In this document: positions 32,619 to 58,923 of the stretch, piece after piece
Numbering within the stretch: position 1 is the first letter of the stretch
Layout of the letters: every line of letters begins with the position of its first letter
Origin: an uncultured Ruminococcus sp.
GTDB lineage: Bacteria > Bacillota > Clostridia > Oscillospirales > Acutalibacteraceae
Assembly: GCA_902798755.1 (NCBI GenBank)
Contig: CADBYC010000003.1
Location: forward strand, 1-64,000
DNA length: 64,000 bases
Reading direction: 5' to 3'
Made by a program: the position numbers and the translations under genes
The notes under the pieces: generated by a model
What the model saw: the letters and a program-made list of their open reading frames with translations, nothing else
Told to the model about the DNA's origin: nothing
Database searches by the model: none

Positions 32619-32753
32619 TCAGTCGCGGAAAGGAATCGTTGATTTATAAATCAACACTCCATTGACAGAACGGTAAACCAATATCTTTTCTTCGATATTA
32701 TCTTCGCTTATCTTCGTTGTGCAGAATAACCGCTCGGGATAATCGTTCTCCAA
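32619..32753 (-). CDS. Small downstream ORF of the GHKL/PRTase operon (about 44 aa)
   Basis: Reads (TTG)ENDYPERLFCTTKISED, then NIEEKILVYRSVNGVLIYKS to TGA at 32619. AGAGGA lies about 10 bases before TTG 32753. It follows the DUF2971 gene stop by 14 bp and its composition looks coding. It could equally be the original C-terminus of the DUF2971 protein after a frameshift, because the frame stays open back into that gene. Confidence 0.4.
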   Translation of the reverse strand: MENDYPERLFCTTKISEDNIEEKILVYRSVNGVLIYKSTIPFRD

Positions 32754-32767
32754 GACTGATATATCCT

Positions 32768-33817
32768 CTATTTTCCAAGGATCTTCTTCAAGCTTTTTTC
32801 GCAGATCGTTTCAGAGTAGAACCGCCCCGATTCCGTTCCCTCGATCATATTTATCACTGCGTTAAATACAAGGTTTTGATTTGCGCCGGGACCAACAGTA
32901 ACAGATTTTATCGGCAATTTGTCTTTATCCTTGTTGACGATCGTACATTTAAAATACGGAAGTATTCTGCTTCCCTTTTCTCTGTAGAGCATGGGCGTAT
33001 CGTTCGTGGGAAAGAATAGCAGCCGCGATTCCTTTTCATGCGCAAAATAATTATTCTTACAAATAGGGATAAAAGAGGCGATGATATTGTTATAATATAT
33101 CTCTTTAGATTTATCTGAATCGATCAGTCCCAACTTCTTGATATCATTGTCATACCCTTTAATAATATACTCCAGGGCTTTTCTCTTCTCATCATCCGTG
33201 TACAATACTTCGATAGGCCGCAGATTATTACCTTTTCGTGTTTTCTGTGAATAGGAAATAGTCATCGGAATATCTGCATCAGAAAAATCCAATTCATCAT
33301 CATTTGTTATCAGAGAAGTAATAGCATCTGTATCGATCTCCACTTTCCTGGTATAGACCTCGTCATCGGATATCTTAGCGTCTTTCTTCCAAAAGCCCTC
33401 GCACTCATTGAAATCAAAGCCTATGGATAGACCGCAATTTTTTCCGTAATACTTCCACTGTTCGAGCATATCACGATCTGATGAAAAGCAGGCAATGTAT
33501 ACATTTTTAGAAAAATGATTCAGCGACTTCTCCAAAAGCTGTTTCGTCTGATCACGTGTATTTTTTTGTTCTATGTAAGCGCCTATGAATTTTTCTCCTT
33601 CAAATAGTTCATTAGCATCGTTTTGATACTGTGTATTACCGGGAAACAAATAGCACTTCTTATCTCTAATATCTTTCATCATCAGTAAAAAGCCGGCGAT
33701 GCTTGTATAATGATAAAAAAACTTTTTACCTGTCCTCGGCGCGATTTTTTTTGCGTCTTTAACAGTATCATTGAGGATCTTGCATATGATATCATATTTT
33801 AAAAATTCCTCATTCAT
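32768..33817 (-). CDS. DUF2971-family protein, likely effector of the four-gene system
   Basis: 349 residues. The DUF2971 landmarks are present: an N-terminal KFFYHYTSIAGFLLM, the central ACFSSDRDMLEQWKYYG with CGLSIGFDF, and a C-terminal YFAHEKESRLLFF. The H-S-E-like spacing invites comparison with ADP-ribosyltransferase folds, but that is inference. DUF2971 genes are frequent in defence islands. Its ATG overlaps the receiver-gene stop (ATGA), and it is the last large gene of the operon, the usual place of an effector. Confidence 0.85.
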   Translation of the reverse strand: MNEEFLKYDIICKILNDTVKDAKKIAPRTGKKFFYHYTSIAGFLLMMKDIRDKKCYLFPGNTQYQNDANELFEGEKFIGAYIEQKNTRDQTKQLLEKSLNHFSKNVYIACFSSDRDMLEQWKYYGKNCGLSIGFDFNECEGFWKKDAKISDDEVYTRKVEIDTDAITSLITNDDELDFSDADIPMTISYSQKTRKGNNLRPIEVLYTDDEKRKALEYIIKGYDNDIKKLGLIDSDKSKEIYYNNIIASFIPICKNNYFAHEKESRLLFFPTNDTPMLYREKGSRILPYFKCTIVNKDKDKLPIKSVTVGPGANQNLVFNAVINMIEGTESGRFYSETICEKSLKKILGK

Positions 33818-34452
33818 TTTTTATTCTCCGATTTCTTTATTAAGTCTCTGAACACAATCTTACACAATATTCCCAATTCGTCTTTTTCCTCATATTGAGG
33901 AGAGAGAAGAACTCTATTGACATATTTTCCATTTTTGTCGATCGGATTATAGATACAATATATTTCCTCTCCGGTTTTCCAATTTAGATTATTCTTTATA
34001 CCGTTATAATCTCTGATATCTGTTACCGCCTTAATATCATACCAGCTGGACATGAAAGTAATGGAGATTCGTTCTCGCTCGTTATTTAACCGATCCAAAA
34101 TCTTGTTGGCGACCTCGATCCCGGACGCGATCCGAGAATTTGAAACGCTGTCATCCGTAAGCTGATCGGAAATTTTTCTCAAGTCGTCTTCTTCGGCTTT
34201 CGTCAATAAAAAGTCGATCAGCAGCTCTACATGATCCGTATCGCTCTTCGTAAACAAATCCTTCAGCAAAGCTATCAACCGGTCAGAAGCAGCTGTTACA
34301 TCTGCATCTTCCACTGTGAATCCATAGTACCCGCCAACCTTTATCTCTTTCTTACTATCCTGCATATATTGCTGTGAATACTTTTGGATCAGCGCTTTCA
34401 TCGTAATAGCTTTTGTTTTGTTATTATCTATGATGATAATATAGTATTTCAA
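33814..34452 (-). CDS. Receiver-domain protein (212 aa) of the four-gene system
   Basis: Residues 1-155 read as a response-regulator receiver with an insertion. Asp9 ends beta-1 (YYIIIIDNN), Asp80 lies in ELLIDFLLT, SGIEVANKI follows as in G.e.a..i, Ser135/136 lies in ISITFMSSW, and Lys153 completes the set. The C-terminal 55 residues (GEEIYCIYNPIDKNGKY) are not a known DNA-binding domain. TTG start 34452 with GGGGGAA 6 bases upstream, 2 bp after the preceding stop. Probably receives phosphate or a signal from the GHKL proteins and acts on the DUF2971 protein. Confidence 0.75.
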   Translation of the reverse strand: MKYYIIIIDNNKTKAITMKALIQKYSQQYMQDSKKEIKVGGYYGFTVEDADVTAASDRLIALLKDLFTKSDTDHVELLIDFLLTKAEEDDLRKISDQLTDDSVSNSRIASGIEVANKILDRLNNERERISITFMSSWYDIKAVTDIRDYNGIKNNLNWKTGEEIYCIYNPIDKNGKYVNRVLLSPQYEEKDELGILCKIVFRDLIKKSENKK

Positions 34453-34454
34453 TT

Positions 34455-37400
34455 TTATTCCCCCATAAAATAATTATATATCGTTGAAACGTAGTTCTTC
34501 GGATTCCCTTCGTCTTCTTTAAAGTCCATCCTCGCATACCTGTTGTTGATAGTATGCTCCATCGCTAACTGTGTAATGCGCCGACTGTTATTTTGATGCG
34601 TTTCCACGGACTTTTTCTTATTCACGACCTTGAGATGTATTGCGTTTTCTCCTGCCTCAAACCTTATCTTTACAGGATCATCTTTCTCTCCGTGCTCTAT
34701 CGCATTCTGTACCAGAATATGGATCAGCGCGATAGAGATCCAGCTGGAACCTGTTGAATCTATTGCAAGACTGAGGATCTTTTTCACATTTTGACCGCTA
34801 TGCAAAACGCCTGTATCACACTCGATGTTGTTTCCGTCGGGCTGATACTGTCCCCGTATGGAAGTAAGATAGTATTCAAATCTCGGTATAAAATCCTGAA
34901 GCTGATTATAAGTTGGTGCTAATTCATCAGAACTGTCGGAAAAATCAATGTCACTATCACTCATTTTTAAGGTATCAGGGCTTAGCGTCCCTGATTTTGA
35001 AATATCCTTTACATAAGTAATATCCAACATGCTCTGAAACTTATATTCAAAACCCATATCGTTCGCTACACGACTGCAATGCATAAATGAAATCAGTTTG
35101 TTGGCGAGAAGCGTTATCTCAGAATAGATCCCGTTGGGAACATCTGCCTTAGAAGACAAATGATAGATTTTCTCAAGAGAACTGATACTCTCGATAATGT
35201 CCTCGCTGTTGCCGTGAGAGATCGCCTTAGGCTCAGATAAAATCTTCACCCAATTCTCCTCTTGATACATCTTATAAAGCACACCGGACCGCGCTTCGAT
35301 TTTGATTTGCTCCGCTATATCATACCGGTACAGAAGAAGCTTTCTCAGCAAAAGTAATCTGTCGATTTCGCTTTCCTGAGAGAGATGATTTACGATCATA
35401 TATACAGAATCTAAGTTTCCGTATCCGATTTTGCAAACCTGGACGCTGAAGAAATCACCGCCGTCTTTAAAGTCGTTGTCACTGTCAACCATATATGACT
35501 GATCCAGTATCTTTTCATTCTGCTGAAAAGTGCTTCGCCCGTCTTGGTCGATAATAAATCTTTCTCCCGTGCTGCTTACCTTTGCAATTAAGAAAACTTT
35601 CTCGTTATTTGTGATTTCGTCAAAGATATCTTGGAAAGAACTTGGGAATGGGTGACTGTCTTTTTGGGTAATATCCTTTTTTTCGGTTATTACATGCAAA
35701 TTGTCAAGAAAAACAGATTTGACAAACTCTTTCAGCTCCCGGTCTTTTTCGTTAGCGCTGCTTAAAATACCGGACCGTAAAATCTCGTTATCAAGTCTGA
35801 CTGCCTTTCTGTAGCCGCTCAATCCTCCGGTGATTTTTATGATCGAGCTTCTGAGCATCATTTTAAATTGTTTCTTTTCGCCTTCTGTGACATTGATCTT
35901 TTCAACAAAATCAAAAGCGAACGCGATATTTTTAAACTTAATAAAATAATTAGACTCGATCTCACAAATACGTTTAAGCAATATCAAATACAAATAAAAA
36001 ATATGCTCATCTTGCCTCGACTTTAATGCTATATCCTTCATGTCTTGAATAATGATAAACGCCTTGTTGTGGTCGATCCCATTGATATCTTTTAATAATC
36101 TGATCAGTGATTTGGGCTGTATCCTGTAGTCTTTTTTCAGGATTTCCAGCATATACAGCAGAATTGCGTGAATGGCTTTCTTTACGTTTTCCCGATAGTA
36201 CAAAAACGGTCTGGACAAAACGATGATAAAAGAATAGATATATTCGTACTGTAAATCCCCTTTTAACGGGTTCAGCTCTGATGAAATACAGTCCAAAATG
36301 ATCCGATAGATCTTATTGGGATCTGACCATTCGTGACTCAGTCTTTTATACATCTGATTCTCACAGTAAAACCTTCTGATATGCCGTTCCTGGATATCAT
36401 CTGATTGCTTTAAAAAGACTTCTTTCGCGCCCTCAAGGTTTTTTATAATATGATAACGCTCTCTCTCAGCCCAATGCTCCTCCATGGATAAAAACGCTGA
36501 TTTTTTCTTTAAACGTGTTGCCTGTGCTTTTTTACCGCACAGATGACAAGAATCTCCGTAGTTTCTGAGAGAAGGAACGTTAATATCAATAAATGAGAAA
36601 AATCTATCTGCGTCGCTTACATAATTGTATTTAGAGGCTGACGAATTTCTGTTAAGCAAGATAATAACCGATTCAAATAAATGTATATTCTTTCTTGCAA
36701 CTTTGATGTCTAAACGTCTGATCAAAGAGGTGACAAAAGACTTTGCCCTGTAAAAAGAATTGCCCAGTATCAATTCGTCATCAACATAGTGAAAATAGAT
36801 ATTCGTTTCCGCCTGCAGATTCTTTAACGGATTTATGATATAAGAATAGTTAGAATATTTGCTCTCGAAATTGGAACGGAATTCATTTTTTGGATTAAGC
36901 GTAATGATCTCGCATTGCGATTCAAATACTTCCGTGCTGATCATGTTAAAAAACCGCTCGTTGCTGTAGTGAGTCGGAGCTATGATAACGTCGATTCTCT
37001 CCTCGTCCTTCTTAATAAGTCTGTCACGGATTGTTTGACAATACTGACCAAACTTTTTGGATAATCTTTCATCAGACAGGATTCTGTTTAACAGCGCGTT
37101 CGTTCTGATATAATACTGATAATGATTCCCGTCGCGCGTTATATGGTTGTAGTATAAATACTCGCTGAAAACAAAATGATGATCGGCGTCACGCTCGAAA
37201 AAATCTATTTTTTCAGCGTCATCCCTTTTTTCAGCGTCTTGATCGTCTTTTTTTTCTTTGCTCAGATCGCCTTCGATCATTTGGATCGGGATCACCGATG
37301 TTTCATTGGTCCCGATAATCGGTCTTTCATGCTCCTGTTGATAACACCATTTACAGTCAGAGGCATTTTGCCATTCGCAATAAACGCATATGAGATATTT

Positions 37401-38216
37401 TGCTTCTATGCGCATCTCTTCAGATCCGCCCTTTCGAGTAAGCAGCCGCTCTGCGCTCTGATGCTCCAGGACTTTTCCGTCATCGAGATCATACACAACG
37501 TTACCCGAAAGGAACTCATTAGGCAAAACCTGGATGACAGAATAAAAAAGAGAACGTTCCAAAATCCATTTCTGAATCCGTTTCTTCAGTATTTTCTCTT
37601 TTTCATCTTCACTGTAAATATTGTCATACTCTTTTTTCAACTCTTCTGCTAATCTACCAAAACGTTCTCCCTGCTCGTTCTTTTTGTCATACATATCGTT
37701 AAATAACCGATCAAATATTTTGTTATATGTACTCAGAGTTGAGGATATTCCGCAGACAAAAACAAATCTGTCGTACTCTGACAAGGGCAGAATGCTGCAC
37801 TTTCTCAGCCTTTCCTTGGTCATATAGTCCGACGTAGTGTGCTTGGGTCCCTCGTAAATGCAGTAATCCACATCTGTGAACTTAGCTTCTTCCATGATAT
37901 CTTTTGTCTTTATCATTACAGGCTCGATGTAGGTTTCATATCCTATCATCAGAATTTTTTCAGACTTGTCCGATATAACATCTGATATATCCTTCGCCAA
38001 GGAATTTGAAAAAATAGATATCCAATACGCGTTTCCGAATAAAAACTGTGCTTCAAAAAACTCTCCGAGATGTACATCTCCCACTTTTACATGAGTGCTG
38101 TTCACATGACATCCCAAATCCACCTTATGGATATCTCTGGTTAATATACGGGTCAATTCCGTTTGCCAAATTTTTCTTGGACCGCAGTCGAGCATTTTAA
38201 ACTTTTGTATATTCAT
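34455..38216 (-). CDS. Phosphoribosyltransferase-like / zinc / GHKL ATPase multidomain protein (1253 aa)
   Basis: An N-terminal PRTase-like region (KVGDVHLGEFFEA, then ILMIGYETYIEPVM) is followed by a zinc-binding loop near residue 275-292 (CVYCEWQNASDCKWC). A second PRTase-like motif lies near 475 (HYVDDELILGNSFYRA, compare DDxxxxGxS/T), and a further CHLCG lies near 550. A long helical region follows. The C-terminal GHKL ATPase has N-box IALIHILVQNAIEHGE near 1163. No classic phospho-acceptor His domain is evident. ATG overlaps the upstream stop (ATGA). Domain calls are by eye; the combination is unfamiliar to me. Confidence 0.8.
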   Translation of the reverse strand: MNIQKFKMLDCGPRKIWQTELTRILTRDIHKVDLGCHVNSTHVKVGDVHLGEFFEAQFLFGNAYWISIFSNSLAKDISDVISDKSEKILMIGYETYIEPVMIKTKDIMEEAKFTDVDYCIYEGPKHTTSDYMTKERLRKCSILPLSEYDRFVFVCGISSTLSTYNKIFDRLFNDMYDKKNEQGERFGRLAEELKKEYDNIYSEDEKEKILKKRIQKWILERSLFYSVIQVLPNEFLSGNVVYDLDDGKVLEHQSAERLLTRKGGSEEMRIEAKYLICVYCEWQNASDCKWCYQQEHERPIIGTNETSVIPIQMIEGDLSKEKKDDQDAEKRDDAEKIDFFERDADHHFVFSEYLYYNHITRDGNHYQYYIRTNALLNRILSDERLSKKFGQYCQTIRDRLIKKDEERIDVIIAPTHYSNERFFNMISTEVFESQCEIITLNPKNEFRSNFESKYSNYSYIINPLKNLQAETNIYFHYVDDELILGNSFYRAKSFVTSLIRRLDIKVARKNIHLFESVIILLNRNSSASKYNYVSDADRFFSFIDINVPSLRNYGDSCHLCGKKAQATRLKKKSAFLSMEEHWAERERYHIIKNLEGAKEVFLKQSDDIQERHIRRFYCENQMYKRLSHEWSDPNKIYRIILDCISSELNPLKGDLQYEYIYSFIIVLSRPFLYYRENVKKAIHAILLYMLEILKKDYRIQPKSLIRLLKDINGIDHNKAFIIIQDMKDIALKSRQDEHIFYLYLILLKRICEIESNYFIKFKNIAFAFDFVEKINVTEGEKKQFKMMLRSSIIKITGGLSGYRKAVRLDNEILRSGILSSANEKDRELKEFVKSVFLDNLHVITEKKDITQKDSHPFPSSFQDIFDEITNNEKVFLIAKVSSTGERFIIDQDGRSTFQQNEKILDQSYMVDSDNDFKDGGDFFSVQVCKIGYGNLDSVYMIVNHLSQESEIDRLLLLRKLLLYRYDIAEQIKIEARSGVLYKMYQEENWVKILSEPKAISHGNSEDIIESISSLEKIYHLSSKADVPNGIYSEITLLANKLISFMHCSRVANDMGFEYKFQSMLDITYVKDISKSGTLSPDTLKMSDSDIDFSDSSDELAPTYNQLQDFIPRFEYYLTSIRGQYQPDGNNIECDTGVLHSGQNVKKILSLAIDSTGSSWISIALIHILVQNAIEHGEKDDPVKIRFEAGENAIHLKVVNKKKSVETHQNNSRRITQLAMEHTINNRYARMDFKEDEGNPKNYVSTIYNYFMGE

Positions 38217-40168
38217 CGTGTCTCTCCTTCGTCCTCTTCAGCCACATTCCGTTCCAGCGTGGAAACAGATGTATTCAGCTCATCAAAGATTTCATCGTTG
38301 ATAGCCCCAAACACCAGTTGGCTTACAAGATTCTTCAGTATATCGTCGTACTTTTTCCCTGAAATAAAGATTTCAGCGCTGCAGTCGAGATTGCATAAGA
38401 ACAGTTCGTTTTGAAGAAACGTCGTGTTCTCTCCCCTGTATGTATAACACAGCGCAATCAACCTGAGCGCCGTCTTCAACAGCCCCATGTTTTGGAACTC
38501 GGTGATTGCAACACAGGTAGACTTCTCTGCTTCGAAAGTTTGATCCCGCTTGCTTAAAAAAGAGAGAACCGCCTTGATTAAGTATTCCACTTCAATTCTC
38601 CGCTTGATGGTTAAAGCGCTGAGGCACAGGATTTTTCCCTCTTCATAGTTATCCGTCAAAAGCCGCGTCAGTTGATTGATCCTGTCGCTTTTCTCCTGCC
38701 TGTTATCCGGCAGGTCAAATTGACTATAGTCGATCTTCAAAGAACATGCGCCAAAGTCCAAATACGAAAAATTATAATTATTTTTACTGATTCCGGTATA
38801 TACAGACTTAGAAACTTGTTCACGTATCGGAATGACCAGTCTGTAAAAAGTTCCCTGTGCATAGTGATAATTCTCCGCCGCCTGAGGTTTGAAAGAAGGA
38901 TTTTGTGTATCAGAATAAAAATATTGCTTGTTTTTCAGGCAAAACAGCGCCTCCGTTTTTTTTGCCATAAGATGCAAGGTCTGCAAACCGTAGTGTTCAA
39001 TAATCATTTTCGGATTATTAAAATACTCATCTATTGTATTACTGATATTGGGTGTCAAAATCCTCTCAAGCGCATTGGGGGAGTCAAGCTCACTCTTCAA
39101 TTCCGGCTTTCTGTTTTCATCGGCCAAATCAATAAAATTAGAAACTATTGTTCCGTTCGGACAATAATCAACCAGTGTGACTTCTATAAAGAATCCGGCA
39201 GCCGAATTGCGCTGATCGGGTTTCATAACGTCAATCAGCGCTTTGGAATCGCCCTTATGGATCCTGAAAGATAAAACACCGTCAGAGGCATAGAAGAAAG
39301 TGTTCTCAACGATCTGTTCAAGGCTCAGCGCGTAATCAAGACAGCTTTCAAAGACCAATCCGTAATCAAAGCTATCTGATTGCTTTTTGGTGACTACGGC
39401 GCCAAATAGAAGCATTGCCAAAAGCGGGGTATCGTGCTGAAGCCTAATGAAATCTATCACCTTTTCATAACCCCTTAAACGCGTCAAATAGCTATATATA
39501 CAAAAATACAAATTTATTTTTGCAGGGGAGTATCCAAAGTCGGACAGAACAGTTAGAATCATTTTTCTGTTATATCCAATTTTGTCGTATATTTCTTCAT
39601 TAAAATGAAAGGAATCATAACAAGAGCGGTAAAAATCCTCATCGACTCTGAAAAACGGCAGAATCTCTCCCGGCAAAAAATCATTATATTGTGAAGGTAG
39701 ATTTCTTATTCCATCTGCATCCTTGATAAATATATAGTCATATAGGGTCGTGCGATTTGTAAAGAAATACTGTGAAATCTTAAAATATATATTAATATCA
39801 ACCTCGTTATGAAGGATTAAGAACGCATTAATACTATTTGTTCTAAAGTATTCCTCCAATATCAAAATATATTGCAGATTGATGACATCCTCTTTTCCAA
39901 GCTCTACTGTTATGATTATATGCTTTTCGACAGTCTTGCCGTACTCTTCAAGGGTTATTTGTTTATTACAGCTGGTAAAGCTCTCGATTTTGGATAAATC
40001 CAAATAGACAGATACGTTGTTATAATAACAAATTGAATTTATAAATGGATCATCCTTCGGAAATTGATTATTGATAATATAATTCGGGATTCTATCAAGT
40101 ACAAACGAATCCCCTCTGCATTTGATAAACAACACACCTGCATCTTTTGAAATCTTGATCTTTGCCAT
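38213..40168 (-). CDS. Degenerate GHKL-ATPase protein (651 aa), first gene of the four-gene system
   Basis: The N-terminal 200 residues are alpha/beta with STAS- or REC-like strands (VSVYLDLSKIESF). A GHKL-like core spans about 275-460: LEQIVENTFFYASDGVLSF as N-box, VDYCPNGTIVSNF in place of DxGxG, HYGLQTLHLMAKKTEALF, and GTFYRLVIPI as the final strand. The G-boxes are eroded, so ATP turnover is doubtful and a regulatory or partner role is likely. AGGAGAGAAAA precedes the ATG. Directly coupled to the 1253-residue protein. Confidence 0.75.
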   Translation of the reverse strand: MAKIKISKDAGVLFIKCRGDSFVLDRIPNYIINNQFPKDDPFINSICYYNNVSVYLDLSKIESFTSCNKQITLEEYGKTVEKHIIITVELGKEDVINLQYILILEEYFRTNSINAFLILHNEVDINIYFKISQYFFTNRTTLYDYIFIKDADGIRNLPSQYNDFLPGEILPFFRVDEDFYRSCYDSFHFNEEIYDKIGYNRKMILTVLSDFGYSPAKINLYFCIYSYLTRLRGYEKVIDFIRLQHDTPLLAMLLFGAVVTKKQSDSFDYGLVFESCLDYALSLEQIVENTFFYASDGVLSFRIHKGDSKALIDVMKPDQRNSAAGFFIEVTLVDYCPNGTIVSNFIDLADENRKPELKSELDSPNALERILTPNISNTIDEYFNNPKMIIEHYGLQTLHLMAKKTEALFCLKNKQYFYSDTQNPSFKPQAAENYHYAQGTFYRLVIPIREQVSKSVYTGISKNNYNFSYLDFGACSLKIDYSQFDLPDNRQEKSDRINQLTRLLTDNYEEGKILCLSALTIKRRIEVEYLIKAVLSFLSKRDQTFEAEKSTCVAITEFQNMGLLKTALRLIALCYTYRGENTTFLQNELFLCNLDCSAEIFISGKKYDDILKNLVSQLVFGAINDEIFDELNTSVSTLERNVAEEDEGETR

Positions 40169-40651: not shown

Positions 40652-41875
40652 GTGGTACAACGAAGAGAATACTTAAATCAACTCAAACAATGGAAAGATG
40701 AAAAGGTAATTAAAGTCATTACCGGGCTGAGGCGTTGTGGCAAGTCTACTCTTTTACAAATGTTTCGAGATCATCTGGAATCTTCCGGAATACTTCCTGA
40801 ACAAATCATCTTCATCAATTTTGAAGATATAGAATTTGAAAACCTTCTGGATTATAAAAAGCTTTATCAATACATCTGTGACAGACTCGTTCCCGATAAG
40901 ATGAACTATATCTTTCTTGATGAAATACAAGCTGTTTCTGATTATCAGAGGGCGGTCGATAGTTTGTACCTTAAAGAAAACACTGATATTTATATCACAG
41001 GCTCAAACGCATACTTACTATCCGGTGAGTTAGCGACACTGCTGTCCGGCAGGTACGTAGAGATCAATATGCTTCCTTTATCGTTTGCTGAGTACTGTGA
41101 ATTAGTGAGCGGAAATGATAAAGAATCATTATTTGCAGAATATATGCGTTTTGGTTCTCTTCCGTATATTGCTTCTTTAGATCCTGTGTCGGAAAAAGCA
41201 GACATCTACCTGGAAGGGATATACAACACCATAATAATTAAAGATATCGAGCTTCGTCAACAACGAAAAGAGCGCGACCCGAATAAGCGAAAAGTAACCG
41301 ATACCACTCTTCTCAGGAACATTTCGAAATTCTTGGCAAATTCTATCGGCAGTCCTGTTTCCATAAAAAGCATTGCTAACTATATCAGCTCAAACGTCAG
41401 ACCTATTTCCCAGAATACGGTCGCTGATTATGTTGAAGCTTTAGTAGAACCATATGTGTTTTACCCGATAGAGCGATACGACGTGTTTGGAAAGAATCTT
41501 TTAAAACAGAATTGCAAGTATTATATCGTCGACCTGGGAATCAGACGACATTTGCTGTCGCGAAGCAGATATGATCTTGGATTCTCTCTAGAAAACCTTG
41601 TGTGTTTAGAGTTGCTCCGCAGAGGATATTCAGTGAATGTCGGCAAAGTCGGGTCTGCAGAAGTTGACTTTGTCGCAAAAAAGAGCGACCAGACAGAATA
41701 CTATCAGGTCACAGCGTCAATGGTAGATGAATCAACCTTTGATCGTGAAATATCCCCCTTAAAATCCATCTCTGATAATTATCCTAAAACGATCCTCACT
41801 CTCGATCGTCTGTCCCTTGGTAATTACGAAGGGATTCTTGTAAAAAATGCAATCGACTGGTTATTGGATAAATAG
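40652..41875 (+). CDS. AAA ATPase with DUF4143 domain
   Basis: 407 residues starting at GTG 40652 (AAAGGAAAA upstream). Walker A GLRRCGKSTLL, Walker B MNYIFLDEIQ, sensor ITGSNAYLLS, and a C-terminal DUF4143 / restriction-endonuclease-like fold (SAEVDFVAKKSDQTEYYQV). Family members are common, poorly understood STAND-like ATPases of gut bacteria. Monocistronic. Confidence 0.9.
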   Translation: MVQRREYLNQLKQWKDEKVIKVITGLRRCGKSTLLQMFRDHLESSGILPEQIIFINFEDIEFENLLDYKKLYQYICDRLVPDKMNYIFLDEIQAVSDYQRAVDSLYLKENTDIYITGSNAYLLSGELATLLSGRYVEINMLPLSFAEYCELVSGNDKESLFAEYMRFGSLPYIASLDPVSEKADIYLEGIYNTIIIKDIELRQQRKERDPNKRKVTDTTLLRNISKFLANSIGSPVSIKSIANYISSNVRPISQNTVADYVEALVEPYVFYPIERYDVFGKNLLKQNCKYYIVDLGIRRHLLSRSRYDLGFSLENLVCLELLRRGYSVNVGKVGSAEVDFVAKKSDQTEYYQVTASMVDESTFDREISPLKSISDNYPKTILTLDRLSLGNYEGILVKNAIDWLLDK

Positions 41876-44161: not shown

Positions 44162-44710
44162 TTACTGCATATCATCGTTTGTAAATACATATTCGCTGAC
44201 CTCGTCATCGATTTCTTCGCGGATGCACCAGAACGGACTGTAGGTGCCTCCGTCACCGTCTGCGAACACGCCGATCAGATGAACAGATAAATCGCTGTCA
44301 AGCAGTTCTGCCCAATACCGTTCGAATATCCGCCAGACTCCGTACCGATTCATCGTCCTATCCTGTTCCATCGCAATGCTCGGATGCTGACCGAGGGACA
44401 GACCAAAATGACCTGCGTCTCTATCCTTTGACCCTGCTTTACGGTACTCCGGATGAGATAGTCTGAGTGGTTTTGTGGGTGATACACGGCACAAATAGCA
44501 ATCAATAAACGCGATATTGCCCTGAATATCTGTGAGATAAAGATTTTGATCATATACATAGGCTGTTTCGCTTTGTAAGGCTGTGGGATCCACATGATCT
44601 TCAAGATTCATTCGCTTGATCTCTTTGATATCCAGATAATCCGGGACCAAGCGGCCTCTTTTCAAAACGAGCTCCACGCCCGGCTCCATGACGTCGTCAA
44701 ATATCAGCAT
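44162..44710 (-). CDS. Hypothetical partner of the Upf1-like helicase (182 aa)
   Basis: 182 residues, soluble, acidic at the C-terminus, no recognised domain. AGGAGGGAA precedes the ATG. It starts 26 bp after the helicase stop on the same strand, so the two form an operon. Its partnership with a nucleic-acid helicase next to other defence genes suggests a two-gene accessory system; the role is unknown. Confidence 0.75.
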   Translation of the reverse strand: MLIFDDVMEPGVELVLKRGRLVPDYLDIKEIKRMNLEDHVDPTALQSETAYVYDQNLYLTDIQGNIAFIDCYLCRVSPTKPLRLSHPEYRKAGSKDRDAGHFGLSLGQHPSIAMEQDRTMNRYGVWRIFERYWAELLDSDLSVHLIGVFADGDGGTYSPFWCIREEIDDEVSEYVFTNDDMQ

Positions 44711-44736: not shown

Positions 44737-47700
44737 CTAAAACCGGTTATCTTGAACATAACGGCATAGCAATCCCTTAGCAGAAGCAGAGCTGCCGTTT
44801 TGCAGGCAGTCAAAGCTGCCAAACACCCAGAACGCATCCTTTGCTCGAGAAACGGCAACATTCATTAATTCCGTATGGTTGTCAATGAAAAAACCGCTTT
44901 CATTTGCTCCGTATGTAGTGGAAAAGATAATAATATTTCGTTCTGCACCTTGAAACGTATGGACCGTACCGACGGTTACCGGAACCGTCTGAAAAGCAAA
45001 AGCCTTGCGCAGCTGCGTTCTGATCTCATTCGCCTGCGCCTTAAACGGAGTGATGACCGCTATGATATCTTCTTTTCTTATGTTTTTGTCGGTATTGCCG
45101 TAAGCGTCACACAGCTCTCCGAAATGAGTCGCGATCCATAGTGCGATCTCTTTCGCTTCTTTCACGTTCTTTCGGCTGGAACCGACCTTCTCGGAGTTCG
45201 GCGTCGGTATATCATGACAGCCGATGATCGGGTATTGCTTCATTTTTTCCGGACGTTTCGTGTCTTTTAACCCGCTGCCGCGCTTCGGTTCCAGCCTGTT
45301 CTGATACACCAAATCATTGCAGTATCGGATGATCTCATCGTAACACCGTCGATGCTCGCTGAGAAACAGTCCTTTATAAGTATTGCCTTTATATGCTTTG
45401 CTATAGGGACAAGCTCCGAGCGCAAGCTTCATTACACTGGACTGTGAGGCATTTAATCCGCGTTTCTCCAGTAAAGAAAAATCCTCTTGTTGCTGAATCA
45501 CACCGCAGTCCAAAGCGAGCGCCATATCCAATTGACGGCATAACCCCCATACCGGCGGGATCTGAAACTCATCCCCAACCACGATCGCTTTCTTTGCCAG
45601 CGCAAATGACGCCGCAGCAACCTCCGGTGATGTTTGTCCCGCCTCATCAACGATCAACAAATCGATATAGTTCATCAAATAACGATCGTTATACATTTTC
45701 ATTTTTGACGGCAGCATATAGAATGTCATTACAAAACACGGTGACAGCATTGACAATTGGCGATACTTTTTTGTCAACACCGGATAGGTCGTCTTCCAAA
45801 TATCTGTCTCTTTGATCGGCTCCTCTTCCAGCCAAACACATTCATAATAATGAATCGCCAGCCAAAACGACCGCCACCTTAAAGAAACATCTAAATACTC
45901 GTTTATTTCTTTAGTTGTTGATTCACTGATGAAAGCGTTGATTGATACTTCTTTCCCATCTTTTTTAGGATGAACGCATCCTGACGCTTCGATTATCTCA
46001 TTGCCGATCATAACAGCTTCGTTCAACAAAGATTCCGTTTCCTTTGCTCGATCATTAAGCCCTTTGATCTGAACGTCAAAGTTTAAACTCTTTTCTTGTA
46101 ATTCTTTGATCCGACTGTCTGTAGCTTGGATTCGGTTTTGATAAAAGGCCAACATATCCTTTGTTGTATGCGCTGACGAAGCTTCTGTGATTTCGCTCTC
46201 CGTTTTAAACGCCTGCGTCCAGCGGATGATCTTTCTGTTAAAAGATGGGACAAAACCGAACATACGGATATACCAGGAAACCTGCGATTGAAAACTCTTC
46301 TCCCACTCTTCCATGCGCAGGCACAGGCTCTGTCGCTTATTCAAAGCCGCTACCCGGAGAGCGTCGATCTCCTGCTTTTTATTCTCAATAGCATGTATTT
46401 CCTGAGCGTTCTGATAAAGATAGTCCTTTACGAAAAGACCGTTTGTCGCTCTCATAATATCGGCGTGCTTGTTGAGAAAACGACGTTTCAAGCTTTCACT
46501 CTTAGTCAGCTCGTGATAAACCGCATCCCTGCATTCTGCAATATCAGTCAAACAATGTCCGAAAAATGCTTCACAACAACATAGCATCTTCTCCTTTGAC
46601 TCTTTTCGAACATCTTCCTGATTTATTGTATTGATCATATCAGTATCAATCTGATACTTCTTCGATTGTCCTTTTTTAGAAGAGGAAGGGAAATAGGTTG
46701 CCAAGCTGTCGGCCGCCGTGACCCATCTTAATTCCAGACCGGATGGATCGGTAGACCTTGGCTGAGAAAAGGAATCGATTATATTTGTTACAGCCTGATT
46801 ATTGGTTGATGACGCAACGATGATCGGCGCCTCTGCTTTCATTAATGCGCGCTTTGTGACACAATCCGCGACAACAGATTGTAAAAGCGTTGTTTTACCT
46901 GTTCCCGGAGGTCCGCTGACAGCCAGTATCTCTCCGTCTGCTAAAAGATTCAAATGATCAAGCGATTCGCGCTGCGACTCCGCCAGAGGATAGCGGTTGC
47001 CCATTTGACCGGAATGATTCAACATTGCTTTCAGCGGATCATCTGTCAGCGGGCGACCAGTCGCCTCACCAAGAGCTGTAAAACGTCTATATAAGGGCAG
47101 CTCATTTATACTATGTTGAGTCAGAATAGCGTCATAGAGTTTTAGAATATGCTGAGAAGCAACAACGGTAGTGTCATTGATCATGTAACATCTCTTATCA
47201 AACTTAAGCACAGCGTCATTTGGGACTGCCAAGCTTGAGATATCCTCATGAGTCACCGTTTGATACATTAAACAGATATAGTCCCAATAATCGTTCCAAC
47301 TCTCGATTTTTCGGCGTTCCGCCGCTGTTTGTGAAAGAAAAACGTCTACATCCTCTGCTTTACCGATACTCAACTCCGCCTCTATCATCGGTTCCATATA
47401 TTCTCTTACAAACCACGGGAGTTTTCCCTCGTTTTTGGCAAGGATTCCTCCTTCACAGAGCTTTGCGGGAACAAAGAATACGCAAGTCAACTCTCTCGGC
47501 TTCTGCGAATCGCTAACACCTTCTTCATAAGGAGATAACAAGTTCTTTAATGCAATCAGTATTTCATATTCTCTTGTGGGGAGTTCCTTATCAGACCGGT
47601 GTTTTTCGCTGTCCTTCAACAGTTTTTCATAGTAATCTTCAAAGCCTTCTCCGGTTGCGATATGATTCATATCGGTAATAAGCAGTGAATCGTCATTCAG

Positions 47701-47760
47701 TTCTATGCTCTGACTTGATTGAGCTGCTAACGCCTTTCGCAAATATTTGGTTACCTTCAT
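44737..47760 (-). CDS. Superfamily 1 Upf1-like helicase (1007 aa)
   Basis: Walker A GPPGTGKTTLLQSVV near residue 285, the Upf1-type Walker B DEAGQTSPE, motif III VVGDEFQIPPV, motif V VGTVHTFQGAERNIIIFS and motif VI NVAVSRAKD. A helical insertion of about 250 residues, partly coiled-coil, separates the first two motifs. A non-helicase N-terminal 250 residues precede them. Such large bacterial Upf1-like helicases occur in defence systems. GAGGG precedes the ATG. Confidence 0.92.
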   Translation of the reverse strand: MKVTKYLRKALAAQSSQSIELNDDSLLITDMNHIATGEGFEDYYEKLLKDSEKHRSDKELPTREYEILIALKNLLSPYEEGVSDSQKPRELTCVFFVPAKLCEGGILAKNEGKLPWFVREYMEPMIEAELSIGKAEDVDVFLSQTAAERRKIESWNDYWDYICLMYQTVTHEDISSLAVPNDAVLKFDKRCYMINDTTVVASQHILKLYDAILTQHSINELPLYRRFTALGEATGRPLTDDPLKAMLNHSGQMGNRYPLAESQRESLDHLNLLADGEILAVSGPPGTGKTTLLQSVVADCVTKRALMKAEAPIIVASSTNNQAVTNIIDSFSQPRSTDPSGLELRWVTAADSLATYFPSSSKKGQSKKYQIDTDMINTINQEDVRKESKEKMLCCCEAFFGHCLTDIAECRDAVYHELTKSESLKRRFLNKHADIMRATNGLFVKDYLYQNAQEIHAIENKKQEIDALRVAALNKRQSLCLRMEEWEKSFQSQVSWYIRMFGFVPSFNRKIIRWTQAFKTESEITEASSAHTTKDMLAFYQNRIQATDSRIKELQEKSLNFDVQIKGLNDRAKETESLLNEAVMIGNEIIEASGCVHPKKDGKEVSINAFISESTTKEINEYLDVSLRWRSFWLAIHYYECVWLEEEPIKETDIWKTTYPVLTKKYRQLSMLSPCFVMTFYMLPSKMKMYNDRYLMNYIDLLIVDEAGQTSPEVAAASFALAKKAIVVGDEFQIPPVWGLCRQLDMALALDCGVIQQQEDFSLLEKRGLNASQSSVMKLALGACPYSKAYKGNTYKGLFLSEHRRCYDEIIRYCNDLVYQNRLEPKRGSGLKDTKRPEKMKQYPIIGCHDIPTPNSEKVGSSRKNVKEAKEIALWIATHFGELCDAYGNTDKNIRKEDIIAVITPFKAQANEIRTQLRKAFAFQTVPVTVGTVHTFQGAERNIIIFSTTYGANESGFFIDNHTELMNVAVSRAKDAFWVFGSFDCLQNGSSASAKGLLCRYVQDNRF

Positions 47761-48302: not shown

Positions 48303-49589
48303 TCAGTTCTTTAACGCTGTTATCGGTACTACGAATACTCCATCAGGACGTCGGTAAGCAGCTGTTGCCATTCCGCAAATCACACATAATACCTTAGGAG
48401 GTACCCCTTTGGGATCTTTAGCGATATCGTTCTCGATTTTGATCAAATTAGCTGCTGCATCATCGATCTGATTAGCGCCGAGCTTGATTTCAAAGGCACA
48501 CCAGTTCCCGTCACTCAGTTCAATTACTGTGTCGATCTCGCGACTCTGATAGTCCTGATAGTGAAATGCTTTTGCACCAAAAGTTTCTGCATAGATCCTC
48601 AGATCTCTTTCACACAGTGCTTCAAATAAAAAACCAAATGTGTGCAGATCATTCAAAAGCCGCTCTTGATTGGCATTTAACAGCGCACAAGCAAGAGCAG
48701 GATCACAAAAATGTCTTTTCTCTGCTTGCTTAACTCTGACAGAAGAACGAATATTTTCCGAGAAAGGCAAGAGATTATCCGTCAGAAACAATCGATCAAA
48801 CACATCCAAGTAGGTTGCGATCGTATCCCTGTCGATTATCTCATCATCTGTTTCCTGAATATCTCTCAATAAACGACTATTCGTTGCTGTTGTACTTTCG
48901 TTACGGGCAAGCGATCTTAACAACAACCTTATTTTATGCTTGTTATACTTTGTACTATCCAACCTTTGAATATCGTCATCTAGTATCGCGCTGATATACG
49001 ACTTCGGCAGTATATCAGCATTTTCTCTGCTGACATCGATATTCCCGGGCCATCCGCCTCTAACCACATAGTATATCAGTTGCTTAATATCTACATCACC
49101 TGTTAAGCACGGAGAAAGTTCTCCTCGACAAAGCGCTTCAAGCGATACCTGACCGGAAGAATCCCCCGACTCATACAGTGACATCGTACGCATACGCAAT
49201 TTGCTGATTCTTCCTGCACCGCTGTGTAAAATACCTTTCCTTTTCGGTGTAGATGAGCCGGTCAGTATAAATTGAGCGCTTTTCGCTCTCTGATCGACAG
49301 CATATCGTACTGCATCCCAAATCGATGGAACCTCTTGCCATTCATCGATCAGGCGAGGTGTCGCTCCTTCCAAAATGGTTGCCGGAGCTATCTCCGCCAG
49401 TTGTCTGTTTTGAAAGTTATTTGCAGGGTCCCCAATCAGATATTCACTGTTACAGTGATAGGAAGATGTCCACGTCTTCCCGCACCATTTCGGCCCTTCT
49501 ACACAAACAGCTCCAACGGCAGTCAAATATTGTTCTACGCGAGAGTCGATCATTCTGGGCTTATACTTTTCCTTGTTTGCAATGCTCAT
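48303..49589 (-). CDS. AAA ATPase with DUF4143 domain
   Basis: About 428 residues. Walker A EGPKWCGKTWTS, Walker B RLIDEWQEVP, sensor ILTGSSTP, and the C-terminal DUF4143/PD-(D/E)XK region (SREIDTVIELSDGNWCAFEI, then KLG). I chose ATG 49589 with GAGG 8 bases upstream over a longer frame to 49631. Second intact DUF4143 ATPase in the window. Confidence 0.9.
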   Translation of the reverse strand: MSIANKEKYKPRMIDSRVEQYLTAVGAVCVEGPKWCGKTWTSSYHCNSEYLIGDPANNFQNRQLAEIAPATILEGATPRLIDEWQEVPSIWDAVRYAVDQRAKSAQFILTGSSTPKRKGILHSGAGRISKLRMRTMSLYESGDSSGQVSLEALCRGELSPCLTGDVDIKQLIYYVVRGGWPGNIDVSRENADILPKSYISAILDDDIQRLDSTKYNKHKIRLLLRSLARNESTTATNSRLLRDIQETDDEIIDRDTIATYLDVFDRLFLTDNLLPFSENIRSSVRVKQAEKRHFCDPALACALLNANQERLLNDLHTFGFLFEALCERDLRIYAETFGAKAFHYQDYQSREIDTVIELSDGNWCAFEIKLGANQIDDAAANLIKIENDIAKDPKGVPPKVLCVICGMATAAYRRPDGVFVVPITALKN

Positions 49590-49869
49590 AGTTAACCTCA
49601 CATTTGTCATACTGTTAACATTATACTTCATTCCGCAGAATTAATCAATAAAATTACGCAAAATTATTTGAAAATATTCCGCAAGATTTCCATATTATAT
49701 TCCTCATCATTTTAATAACAAAACACACATCGTGTATTGTGTTTTCTCTTTTAATAAATCGAACAATTTATTACAATCTAAATATATTTGAATTTCATTA
49801 ATCTGGATTCGCATTGCATATTAGCAGAAAAGCCGACAGGATACCCCATCGACTTTTTCATGATCGTTA
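49590..49869. other. Intergenic stretch with terminator
   Basis: 280 AT-rich bp. The hairpin AAAGCCGACAGG...CCATCGACTTTTT (49828-49857) terminates the gene at 49870. The segment 49795-49920 is duplicated at 54125-54260. Confidence 0.5.
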
Positions 49870-50289: not shown

Positions 50290-51639
50290 TCACAGCAAGC
50301 CCTCACTGTCATTCGGTTTTAAGAACATCACATAGTAAATCGGCAGATAGTATATTTTTTCTTTTTGGGATATTTCTCTGGTATTTGAGAATACAATTGC
50401 CTTTCGGATATTATAATCTTCGTTGGAGAGCAACGCATTCAAAGCGCTGTGGACTTGATAATCCTTCCCGGATTTTACCTCGATAGGCAGTAACGATAAA
50501 GCATCATAATCATCGACGACATAATCGATTTCGCCCTTCTTGCGATTGTCGTAGTAGCGCAAATCAAATCCATGAGCGCGTAATTCCTGTGCCACAACAG
50601 ATTCATATACCGTGCCGAGGTTGATGCTTTTCTCATTATCCAGCACCGCGCGGATATTGTATCGATACAAAATGTTTGTCAACAAACCGACGTCGTTCAA
50701 ATAGAGCTTGAGTAAGTTTTTATTCTCGGACTCGATCAGTGGAAATTTTGGATTGGAAACCGCCTTAACATCTAATGCCACGCCTGCGGAGATCAGATAT
50801 TCAAACTCATCCTGATAATCCGTATAGCGCTTGCCTTTCTTATCCTCGATATCCTTGAACACAACACGCTTTTTCTTGTTTTCCAGATTTAATGGAATCA
50901 TTTCATAAATACGTTGAATTTTCAGTTTTCGGTAATTCTCTTCCTCATACTTTGCTGCGTCAGCGACATAAAAGTCATGAATGTCACTTTGGATCGCTCG
51001 GACATTGGCAATGTTTTTACTTTCGAGGAAGCTGTTGACCGAATCAGGCAAGCCGCCTATCAACAGATATTTCTTGAATAGATCCAGAACACGATTGTGA
51101 GTATTCTCGTCCAAACTCTCATTTGCCAGATACTTTTTTCTCAGAATCTCGATCGCCGTAGCGTTGAATCCATTGGCAATCAAGAATTCTTCAAAATCCA
51201 GCGGGTACATCCTTTTTCGCAGAATACTGCCGATCGGGATAGACGTAGTCTTTTTCAGCGATACGCCCAACATAGAACCACTCGCAATATAGTTATAGCG
51301 ATTATCCGCACGCAGGAATTTGAGCAACGTAAGGAGCTGAGGATACTGCTGGATCTCATCGAGGAAAATCAGCGTATTTTCCTTCTCTTTCATCCTTTCT
51401 CCCGCGATCATGCTGACCTGAAGATAAAAGTCGTCGACCGTCCTAACGTTTTCAAACAGACGGTCGCCTTCATAATCCTCGACAAAGTTCAGCTCGATAT
51501 AATTCTCAAAGAGCTTCTTGCCGACATGATTGATGATAAAAGTCTTTCCGATCTGACGTGCGCCGTCAATCACTAATATCTTGTCGGAATCAGAGCGCAA
51601 ATGAGTCTCGATAAATGCTTCGATTTTGCGATATAACAT
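50290..51639 (-). CDS. AAA ATPase with DUF4143 domain
   Basis: About 449 residues. Walker A DGARQIGKTFII, Walker B TLIFLDEIQQYP, sensor ASGSMLGVS, and DUF4143 C-terminus with the nuclease-like motif (KKGEIDYVV...PIEVKSGKDYQVH). ATG 51639 is preferred over an upstream in-frame start because it begins the family-typical MLYRKIE; the ribosome site is weak. Third intact paralogue in the window. Confidence 0.9.
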   Translation of the reverse strand: MLYRKIEAFIETHLRSDSDKILVIDGARQIGKTFIINHVGKKLFENYIELNFVEDYEGDRLFENVRTVDDFYLQVSMIAGERMKEKENTLIFLDEIQQYPQLLTLLKFLRADNRYNYIASGSMLGVSLKKTTSIPIGSILRKRMYPLDFEEFLIANGFNATAIEILRKKYLANESLDENTHNRVLDLFKKYLLIGGLPDSVNSFLESKNIANVRAIQSDIHDFYVADAAKYEEENYRKLKIQRIYEMIPLNLENKKKRVVFKDIEDKKGKRYTDYQDEFEYLISAGVALDVKAVSNPKFPLIESENKNLLKLYLNDVGLLTNILYRYNIRAVLDNEKSINLGTVYESVVAQELRAHGFDLRYYDNRKKGEIDYVVDDYDALSLLPIEVKSGKDYQVHSALNALLSNEDYNIRKAIVFSNTREISQKEKIYYLPIYYVMFLKPNDSEGLL

Positions 51640-51752
51640 GGCAATCACACTTTTCAATATATTTTTGAGGTATTATACTACACTTTTCAATATAAATGAT
51701 ACCCTAAAAAATACACTTTGTCAACAAGGCTGTTTAATTTATTGTCATTGAA

Positions 51753-55976: not shown

Positions 55977-57212
55977 TTATTTTTCAAACAATCGCAAACT
56001 GCTGTAGACCTTTTTCCTTTGCGCGGCTTCTTTGAGCATCTGCTTTGTCCCCGAGGATTTGCGCCTGCCCGTTATCAGCAAGCCGATATACTTACCTCCC
56101 TCGGCAAGATAGCCGATCGGCAACAGAAATCGGTGTTTATCGATTGCTTTGTAGTCCTCAATAACTTTCTTGTTCAGCGTCCTGAAGCCCTGCTTGATGA
56201 TGCCGTCGGAGCTGACAGTACGCTCGCCGCGGTCGGAGATATACTTGATCTCACGATAGCGGTTCATATCCTTAAAACCGAAGTTTCCGCCGCTTAAGAT
56301 ATCGTTCATCAAGCTCTCAAGCTGTTCAGAGCTTACTTCTTTGCGCTCGATCGCCTCGATCGCCCAGACCCGCTTCGGAGCACCGAGATATTTGATCCCC
56401 AGCAAGGTAAGAACCTGCGCGAATTTCCAGAGTCCGAATTCCTTGAGCTTCTTTTCAAAGATCTCACGAAACTCCGCGTCACTCAAGTCGGACACAAATA
56501 CCACCCAATCGCAAAGGTGTCTGAGTCCCACTCCTTCGCTCGTCAGGTGAGAAGCGGTATGCAGCAACATGATCAACCCGTGATGGAATCGGTCGGGCAC
56601 ACGGCAAAGGACGCCGTCACAGGTCTTTTCCACTGCTGTCTCGATCGTTCGGCCTACCTCCGCTTCTATCAGTTTGCCGATCTCTCCCGAGGGCACTCCG
56701 TTCACGCTTCGGTGCATTTCCCAGATGCTCATGGGAGGACGGGTGTAGGCGACATGGATACCGTCGTCCTCATCGCCGTGATCGATCGCAAAGCCTGCCT
56801 GCTCCAGTACCTCCCCCGCTCTCGTCATATCGGACGGGTCTACCAAAAAATCTACATCGCCCATATTGCGCAGTGAAGGCTCGGGATAGTACATCGCTGA
56901 CGCCAAGCCTTTGATCACGACATAAGGGATCTGACAAGAAGTCATCAGCTCATGCAGTTCTCCGTGCTCGTCAAAATTGCGTGTGCAGGCTATCGCGTGC
57001 ATCAGATTCATTTCACTGTATTGCTCAGCCTTTTCACCGCTGAGCACACTCTTTATCTGACTTTCAAGCGTATTAAACAGGAGAGAATAGACCGCCTGAG
57101 ATTTGCTTTCCTTCAACAGCGGTTCGATGTACTGCTCGTCAACAGCGGGCATATCCCTGCCGAACAAAGCGCCTCCGACGATCTGCAACAGCAGAGCTTG
57201 AACATTATTCAT
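55977..57212 (-). CDS. Nucleotidyltransferase-family protein (NTase_5-like)
   Basis: 411 residues. The signature VVIKGLASAMYYPEPSLRNM then GDVDFLV carries the two metal-binding Asp. The body contains the conserved MHR and HTASHL...GLRHLCDWVVF segments. GGAGGAAAG precedes the ATG, which overlaps the VanZ gene stop by 8 bases. Paralogous to 57772-58923 and more distantly to 7240-8439. Substrate unknown. Confidence 0.85.
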   Translation of the reverse strand: MNNVQALLLQIVGGALFGRDMPAVDEQYIEPLLKESKSQAVYSLLFNTLESQIKSVLSGEKAEQYSEMNLMHAIACTRNFDEHGELHELMTSCQIPYVVIKGLASAMYYPEPSLRNMGDVDFLVDPSDMTRAGEVLEQAGFAIDHGDEDDGIHVAYTRPPMSIWEMHRSVNGVPSGEIGKLIEAEVGRTIETAVEKTCDGVLCRVPDRFHHGLIMLLHTASHLTSEGVGLRHLCDWVVFVSDLSDAEFREIFEKKLKEFGLWKFAQVLTLLGIKYLGAPKRVWAIEAIERKEVSSEQLESLMNDILSGGNFGFKDMNRYREIKYISDRGERTVSSDGIIKQGFRTLNKKVIEDYKAIDKHRFLLPIGYLAEGGKYIGLLITGRRKSSGTKQMLKEAAQRKKVYSSLRLFEK

Positions 57213-57771: not shown

Positions 57772-58923
57772 TCATCGGTTCAGCCCGAGACGCTCGAGGA
57801 AATCAAACTTTTCCGTACCTGAGGACATACCCTTTGCGATCGGTTCGCCGTGGAAAACCGCTGACAACCCGCGCTTGATATAACGGAATATCTGATACAG
57901 CCACGCAAAACGCCGCAGGAAAGGGTGCTCCTGACTTTTCGTCCAATTCTGTTCCCCTCTTGCCTGCAGATATCGAAACAGTCCCATTCGACGGGCGCTG
58001 ATCGTGATATACTCCGCCGGCTGAATTTCCTCCGTCAGCTTACTGCCAAAATCTCCGTAATCAAAAACGGCTTCGAGCAATTCCTGTGCTGTATCTTCAT
58101 CGGCAGGATCACACCATGTAATGGGATCGGTCAGTCCGAACCACTTCTTGCACATACTCGTCATCGTCACAGCAAGCGTTTCAAGCCCTGCTCCCCGCGC
58201 GAGCTGTGCAAAGCCGGTTTCCCAGCTTTCATCGTTCAGATTCGCGTGGACGAACATCATCCAGTCGATGATCTGACGGATACCGAGACCGCCCTGTAAG
58301 TGATGGCGCACATGATCAAGCAGGACCAGCCCATTGATCATCTCGGGCAAAACAGGAAAATGATGATTGAACACTTCACGGGTTGAGATATCAGGAAAGC
58401 TCTCCAAAATCAACGGGTCGATATCCCATTTCTCGTCACTGTAACGATGATGAAGCTCCAGCACAACACCGCGTATCGTATAGCTGTAGTCCCGATCCGT
58501 ACCGTGATCCGAGTTAAAAGCATATCCATTCTCATCCATCAAAGAACGCGCGCTCTCAAAATATTCAGGGGGCACCAAAAAGTCGATATCCCCCATTGCG
58601 CGTCTGAGGGGAGCGGGATAATACATCGCCGCGGCAAAGCCTTTGAGGATCACGAGAGGGATCCCCGCGGCCTCGAAAAGCCGGATCTGCTTTGTCTGTT
58701 CATTCAGCAGATTCAAAAAGTTAGCTGTGTTTCTCGCGACAGAGGTCTGCCATTTCGCAGCTTCTTTTTTCGGAACAGCAGGAGCCGCCAGCGCGACCAC
58801 CGCCTGATCCTTCGCCTCTTGCAGTACCGCGTCCCAGTCAACGCCAGAGGAAAAAGACGGTTTCGTCTCAAACAGTGACGCCTTGATCAGTTCAAGGAGC
58901 GCCTGTTGATTTACATTGATCAT
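57772..58923 (-). CDS. Nucleotidyltransferase-family protein (NTase_5-like)
   Basis: 383 residues. The signature LVILKGFAAAMYYPAPLRRA then MGDIDFLVPP, then LELHHR and DHVRHHLQGGLGIRQIIDWM, align with the gene at 55977. AGGAGGTCGCTT precedes the ATG. First gene of the NTase-VanZ-NTase operon. The pair may act on a surface glycan or small-molecule precursor; inference only. Confidence 0.85.
   Translation of the reverse strand: MINVNQQALLELIKASLFETKPSFSSGVDWDAVLQEAKDQAVVALAAPAVPKKEAAKWQTSVARNTANFLNLLNEQTKQIRLFEAAGIPLVILKGFAAAMYYPAPLRRAMGDIDFLVPPEYFESARSLMDENGYAFNSDHGTDRDYSYTIRGVVLELHHRYSDEKWDIDPLILESFPDISTREVFNHHFPVLPEMINGLVLLDHVRHHLQGGLGIRQIIDWMMFVHANLNDESWETGFAQLARGAGLETLAVTMTSMCKKWFGLTDPITWCDPADEDTAQELLEAVFDYGDFGSKLTEEIQPAEYITISARRMGLFRYLQARGEQNWTKSQEHPFLRRFAWLYQIFRYIKRGLSAVFHGEPIAKGMSSGTEKFDFLERLGLNR

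Follow-up and report, generated by a model that had tools for sequence, protein, structure and literature searches.

A candidate defence operon with a GHKL and phosphoribosyltransferase-like core and a DUF2971 protein in an uncultured Ruminococcus sp.

What could be the function of four tightly packed long genes, the last of which encodes a DUF2971 protein, on contig CADBYC010000003.1 of an uncultured Ruminococcus sp. (assembly GCA_902798755.1)? The window analysed here, i.e. the whole stretch under study, comprises positions 1 to 64,000 of this contig, and the list of its open reading frames (ORFs) places the four genes, denoted A, B, C and D, in a single unit on the minus strand. We slightly favour the reading that A-B-C-D is one operon and a candidate defence (conflict) system, in which GHKL and phosphoribosyltransferase (PRTase)-like modules would form the core and the DUF2971 protein would be the effector. 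Gene A (38213..40168) encodes a protein of 651 amino acids (aa) with a GHKL ATPase region at approximately residues 265-455. Gene B (34455..38216) encodes a 1253-aa protein with a PRTase-like region, Cys pairs and a GHKL-like tail. Gene C (33814..34452), which has a TTG start, encodes a 212-aa protein that is receiver-like only by its motifs and their order, and gene D (32768..33817) encodes the DUF2971 protein of 349 aa in frame. A 4-bp overlap joins A to B and also C to D, whereas a gap of 2 bp separates B from C, in agreement with the linkage described in the first-pass annotation of this DNA. That annotation also had the unit start at position 32619; the four genes were confirmed, but the in-frame D ends at 32768 and the remaining tail is in another frame. 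Inspection by eye revealed AGGAGAG, a likely ribosome-binding sequence, directly before the ATG of A, and GGGGG preceding the TTG start of C. The promoter scan was near expectation (34 promoters found versus 28.9 expected from shuffled sequences), and the window yielded no match to Rfam and no tRNA.

The conservation of gene order shows how the four genes belong together. Co-occurrence in other genomes had been proposed earlier as a check, and all four genes were found in the same order in two of them. Pseudoflavonifractor sp. An44 (G072) carries counterparts of all four genes, which are spaced by -8, -4 and +2 bp; its B protein has 1308 aa and is 31% identical to that of the window. In the genome G960, a single 2250-aa protein stands in for A and B. 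Its gene is followed by a C-like gene and then by one for a DUF2971 protein, and the listed starts give overlaps of 17 and 53 bp. The B proteins are homologous in all four known loci (every pairwise blastp comparison gives E 3e-30 or lower), and the A proteins of the window and An44 are clearly related (blastp, 2e-7). The carrier genomes (window, An44 and G960) have 1-2 DUF2971 genes each, and a rough, after-the-fact estimate that uses these numbers puts chance adjacency in both relatives at 1e-6 to 2e-6. The remaining locus, G1096, encodes a single 1609-aa A+B protein which stops ahead of the B tail. A gene for a 752-aa metallophosphatase (PF00149, E 2e-14; L020 6792-9050) lies 3 bp after the fused gene, and a gene of the endonuclease/exonuclease/phosphatase family is located farther along. 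No C-like gene was seen at this locus and no DUF2971 match was found in the genome at E<=0.05. Because G1096 lacks the B tail, C and D but has the metallophosphatase gene, A and B apparently constitute a core, with an arm made up of the B tail, C and D that seems to be exchangeable as a whole. The N-terminal part (300 aa) of the G1096 metallophosphatase obtained no assignment.

None of the proteins A, B and C matched a family above the cut-off in Pfam, NCBIfam, PADLOC or, with the proteins of the window as queries, PHROGs, and searches of PDB sequences with profiles of all four proteins gave nothing credible. The proteins were compared by hhalign with reference sets taken from the window's own genome (HATPase, 21/23 matches; receiver, 18/19; PRTase, 10/10), using column-shuffled controls (40 and 150 shuffles). 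Such profile comparison had been suggested along with the first-pass annotation, and it supported both the GHKL and the PRTase relationships. Residues 265-455 of A (four rows) matched the HATPase set with E 2e-5 and a probability of 77%, a score that none of the shuffles reached (0/40 and 0/150). The motifs in this region are the N box with N289, the G2 box H392-Y-G394 and the G3 box from G439 to P447. Residues N289, H392, G394, G439 and P447 are invariant in the four-row alignment, in which the G960 row near the N box may be misplaced. This region of A thus appears to be related to GHKL ATPases, a relationship that is supported with modest strength.

The PRTase-like motifs reported earlier in B were borne out by the profile of residues 345-570 (four rows), which contains the motif VDDELILG (478-485) and H416. 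The hhalign comparison with PRTases gave E 0.003 and a probability of 10.5% over 90 columns, and no shuffle reached the score (0/40 and 0/150). The alignment sets YVDDELILGNSF of B against the phosphoribosyl pyrophosphate (PRPP) loop. The PRPP-type motif V-D-D-x-x-x-x-G with its Asp pair is kept in three of the four loci, and a relationship of this region to PRTases seems supported, again with modest strength. Residues 30-230 may be a further PRTase-like region; the profile support is weak here (0/40 and 2/150 shuffles reach the score). The C-terminal tail of B (residues 941-1253, rows of the window and An44) matched the HATPase set with E 2e-4 and a probability of 45%, and neither the 40 nor the 150 shuffles yielded such a score. 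With the G960 row added, the values were E 0.003 and 9.8%. The match is confined to the N box (VQNAIEHG, 1169-1176) and the G boxes are not clear, so that the tail is best described as having a putative GHKL N box, supported with modest strength. Ahead of the N box stands SHG (1000-1002, with H1001), which is common to the window and An44; no profile matched that part. The earlier assignment of GHKL regions to two proteins therefore stands as far as A and the N box of the B tail exceed the shuffled controls, although the hhalign probabilities of both are modest. The Cys pairs of B, which had been described as zinc loops, probably hold zinc. The pair C557/C560 is kept in all four loci and C288/C291 in three of them, whereas C277/C280 is present in the window copy only.

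The most doubtful element of the operon is protein C. The full set of receiver residues attributed to it could not be confirmed: the motif residues D9-N-N, D80 and S135/S136 are present, but the comparison of C (three rows) with 18 receivers of the same genome did not go beyond chance (2/40 and 4/150 shuffles reach the score). The receiver score was no better than the score against PRTases (2/40 shuffles). Lys153 could not be sustained as the receiver lysine, since the model does not put it where the fifth strand ends and only An44 shares it. The AlphaFold model of C, based on two sequences, has a pLDDT (predicted local distance difference test) of 47 and a predicted template modelling score (pTM) of 0.49, and displays an alternating order of strands and helices. 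In this low-confidence model, Asp9, Asp80 and Ser135 are at or beside the points where strands 1, 3 and 4 end. Such an order would fit a receiver, but equally other Rossmann-like folds. The Foldseek search with the model gave 976 PDB matches at E<=10 and none at E<=0.001; among the best 50 of the 976, the receivers FleR (0.023), MaeR (0.038) and RssB (0.093) appeared amid KaiC, Rho, kinases and others. The three C proteins (window, An44 and G960) showed no significant similarity to one another in blastp.

The terminal gene had been assigned to DUF2971, and this was confirmed: protein D matches PF11185 with 23.1 bits (cut-off 22). The An44 protein scores 36.5 bits, and the G960 protein, with 16.4 bits under the cut-off, is linked to both other D proteins by blastp (E 3e-4 and 1e-6). 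Protein D also falls into phrog_1762 of the PHROGs database (E 3e-12), whose function is unknown. The residues HYT 36-38, ND 66-67, E70, D116, QW 120-121, YG 124-125, E261, E263 and R265 are identical in all six rows of the alignment, which suggests that D may be an enzyme. The invariant His36, Tyr124 and Glu263 are reminiscent of the H-Y-E triad of ADP-ribosyltransferases. No PDB structure matched the model of D (pLDDT 36) with an E below 3. The sequence at 32619..32801 (minus strand) resembles the C-terminal end of DUF2971 proteins when compared by eye: its translation ends with KSTIPFRD, compared with SSVPYRG and SKIPFRG in other DUF2971 proteins. This stretch is not in the frame of D, and the shift could be either a real mutation or an assembly error; the assembly of the window genome consists of 74 contigs and is 90% complete. 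Relatives of D were detected by tblastn in 102 plasmid records. Four viral contigs were retrieved for D, and the viral contig search with D alone led nowhere. Three of the plasmid DUF2971 genes were viewed; one, on an E. coli plasmid, is located near SIR2, DUF87 and abortive-infection genes, and the other two are without such neighbours. The window genome has a second DUF2971 gene (contig C20; L087 3411-4346), which by eye lies between genes for a mod-like methyltransferase and a res-like helicase.

The cassette is rare among the genomes searched. B was searched for in overlapping samples of 98 relatives, 391 genomes of the class, 394 of the order, 260 of the An44 family, 239 of the phylum and 210 of the window family, and the search with A covered 398 phylum genomes; all samples came from this one phylum. 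Real matches of B were obtained only in the window genome (G000), An44, G960 and G1096, and the search with A found the window genome and An44 only. Three further matches were dropped after inspection by eye: that of B in G007 (among the 98 relatives) is in a region of GGDEF/EAL-like genes, that of B in G469 (among the 391 class genomes) is a VanS-like histidine kinase, and that of A in G813 (among the 398 phylum genomes) is an unrelated protein. The search of genome contigs found nothing with B alone and only An44 itself with B plus the An44 B protein. No match of B or its relatives was found by tblastn in plasmids and phages, nor was any B relative found in viral contigs searched with B and its two alignments. 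Judged from these sequence comparisons, the spread of the cassette appears patchy, as would be expected of a mobile trait.

The surroundings of the cassette are dense in defence genes in two of the four loci, the window and An44, and this was counted in favour of a defence role, for which the context is stronger than the first-pass annotation was aware of. The type I Wadjet system of the window, encoded on the minus strand (8845-15471), is complete, with JetA (14065-15471), JetB (13443-14102), JetC (10058-13495) and JetD (8845-10065); the window also has a gene for a helicase like MkoC of Mokosh (44737-47760, PADLOC E 7e-259). In An44, a SIR2/AbiH-like gene (L007 2075-3001) stands on one side of the cassette and divergent BrxA-BrxB-BrxC genes (L007 12229-16967) on the other. 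Near the G960 copy, a transposase and a recombinase-like ORF were seen by eye, together with a gene matching the PADLOC PDC-S15 candidates.

Several other genes were observed in the window. A gene for a large serine recombinase (946-2685) borders the defence-rich region, and genes for HipA and Fic proteins are also present. Three AAA_14/DUF4143 ATPase genes (40652-41875, 48303-49631 and 50290-51657) flank the MkoC-like gene on both sides, and a 182-aa gene just downstream of it (44162-44710) has no match in Pfam or PADLOC. There are also three NTP_transf_5 nucleotidyltransferase genes (7240-8439, 55977-57212 and 57772-58923), one of which adjoins the Wadjet system.

From this context and from the patchy distribution we infer a defence function of the A-B-C-D operon, probably against phages or plasmids. 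In the mechanism that we infer, A and B would act as a sensor-switch core, to which A would contribute a GHKL ATPase binding ATP and B a PRTase-like nucleotide-binding module. An infection cue, or a nucleotide change caused by infection, would alter the state of this core. The GHKL-like tail of B together with C would serve as the link, with C as an adaptor coupling the core to the effector. The core would then release D, the putative DUF2971 effector, and the infected cell would be stopped or killed.

A number of findings weigh against the interpretation of the four genes as a defence operon with a GHKL/PRTase core. The regions cut for hhalign were picked after the motifs had been seen, and the uncut proteins score lower (A against HATPase, 7% and E 0.005; B against PRTase, 1.6% and E 0.03). 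The G960 B tail taken alone has no significant match to GHKL. The similarity between A and the N-terminal portion of each fused protein is weak in blastp (E 3e-4 for An44 and G1096, 0.005 for the window and G1096, 0.03 for An44 and G960) or not significant (window and G960); the description of these proteins as A+B fusions thus also leans on position and on the GHKL motifs. The Asp pair of the PRTase motif is replaced by N-T in G1096, which implies that the family does not depend on PRTase catalysis. That the C proteins of the different loci are homologous is judged from gene position and a few motif residues, the identity of C as a receiver is a lead that the profiles do not support, and no fold assignment was obtained from the models of C and D. 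Because the C-terminal end of D is out of frame, the window copy may not be functional. Finally, there are four known loci, all of them in one taxonomic order; the copies in G960 and G1096 are outside obvious defence islands, and the exchange of effectors rests on the single locus G1096.

Other explanations share part of this evidence. In a strict two-component phosphorelay of the kind proposed with the first-pass annotation, the B tail would autophosphorylate at H1001, the phosphoryl group would pass to Asp80 of C, and phosphorylated C would release D. The GHKL N box located behind an SHG shared with An44, the expected order of Asp9, Asp80 and Ser135 at strand ends of the low-confidence C model and the finding that G1096 has neither the B tail nor C or D are all consistent with such a relay. 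However, C was detectable as a receiver neither by profiles nor by Foldseek, His1001 lies 170 residues ahead of the N box and its equivalent in G960 depends on the alignment, and in the alignment used G960 does not keep N1171. We therefore regard the phosphorelay as a tentative possibility. We regard a second-messenger scheme as rather unlikely; in it, infection would prompt the PRTase-like module of A+B to produce or alter a nucleotide, and the DUF2971 and metallophosphatase effectors would respond to that nucleotide. The PRPP-type motif in three of the four loci and the apparently exchangeable effector arm would suit this model, but the change of the Asp pair in G1096, the weakness of the first PRTase-like region, whose score is reached by 2/150 shuffles, and the failure to recognise a ligand-binding domain in either effector argue against it.

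PRTase and GHKL modules occur widely in metabolism and in signalling, and both families match in all 14 control genomes. The operon might accordingly encode a stress or metabolic regulator that is situated in a variable region and has no defence role. The patchy distribution and the defence genes around two of the four loci do not favour this view, nor does the occurrence of DUF2971 in other defence-like settings (contig C20 and the E. coli plasmid), though two plasmid copies have no such neighbours; we consider a mere regulator to be improbable, though not strikingly so. That A, B, C and D are four unrelated genes which became neighbours by chance is suggested by nothing more than the small number of loci. 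The unchanged order of the genes in two diverged genomes, the gene overlaps and the single proteins spanning A and B speak against it, and this extremely improbable explanation was rejected on the basis of the conserved gene order.

If A-B-C-D is a defence operon, it would join, as a new candidate system, the class of defence cassettes that consist of several genes and pair a signalling core with a separate effector. The first-pass annotation knew of no described system with this gene set, and neither PADLOC 2.0.0, in which the presence of Detocs models was not checked, nor the literature searched for DUF2971, PRTase/GHKL and two-component defence (a search whose coverage excluded bioRxiv, most subscription papers and supplements) contains one. 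PADLOC also gave no match for the A and B proteins of An44 or the fused protein of G960. The models of the PADLOC candidate PDC-S31 match D weakly (E 6e-6) and likewise the An44 D protein (3e-4), but this name covers D-like proteins only, and A, B and C match nothing there. Detocs consists of a kinase and a receiver with a PNP effector domain, and other effectors of this system exist. The operon differs from Detocs in that no PNP domain was found by Pfam in its four proteins, its core is composed of GHKL and PRTase-like modules, its last protein is DUF2971 and the receiver status of C is unsupported. The likeness lies in the multi-gene defence design with a separate effector activity, which for Detocs is described with three genes (PMC11249213). 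An N-terminal GHKL ATPase is hypothesised to control the effector of the phage defence protein VcSduA (Shedu) (PMC12137116). VcSduA shares the GHKL ATPase with the operon, but it is one protein with a DUF4263 nuclease and is without a PRTase, C or DUF2971. In the DefensePredictor study, one figure legend names HATPase and REC for predicted, unvalidated systems and another names PRTase for validated ones; the legends do not pair the genes, so that overlap with the present cassette cannot be judged from them (PMC13092281).

A wider claim would be that the operon represents a new modular class of immune systems, with a GHKL and tandem PRTase-like core and exchangeable arms, one of which would combine a kinase tail with a strongly diverged receiver and an ADP-ribosyltransferase-like DUF2971 effector. 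In this full form we find the claim quite doubtful. If the cassette does defend its host, its core of a GHKL ATPase and a PRTase-like module would be a new type of sensor around which effectors are swapped. It would also provide a defined setting for DUF2971, which a single paper of the literature searched names although relatives of D occur in 102 plasmid records. That the B tail, C and D are missing together from the relative G1096 makes the wiring of such a system directly testable.

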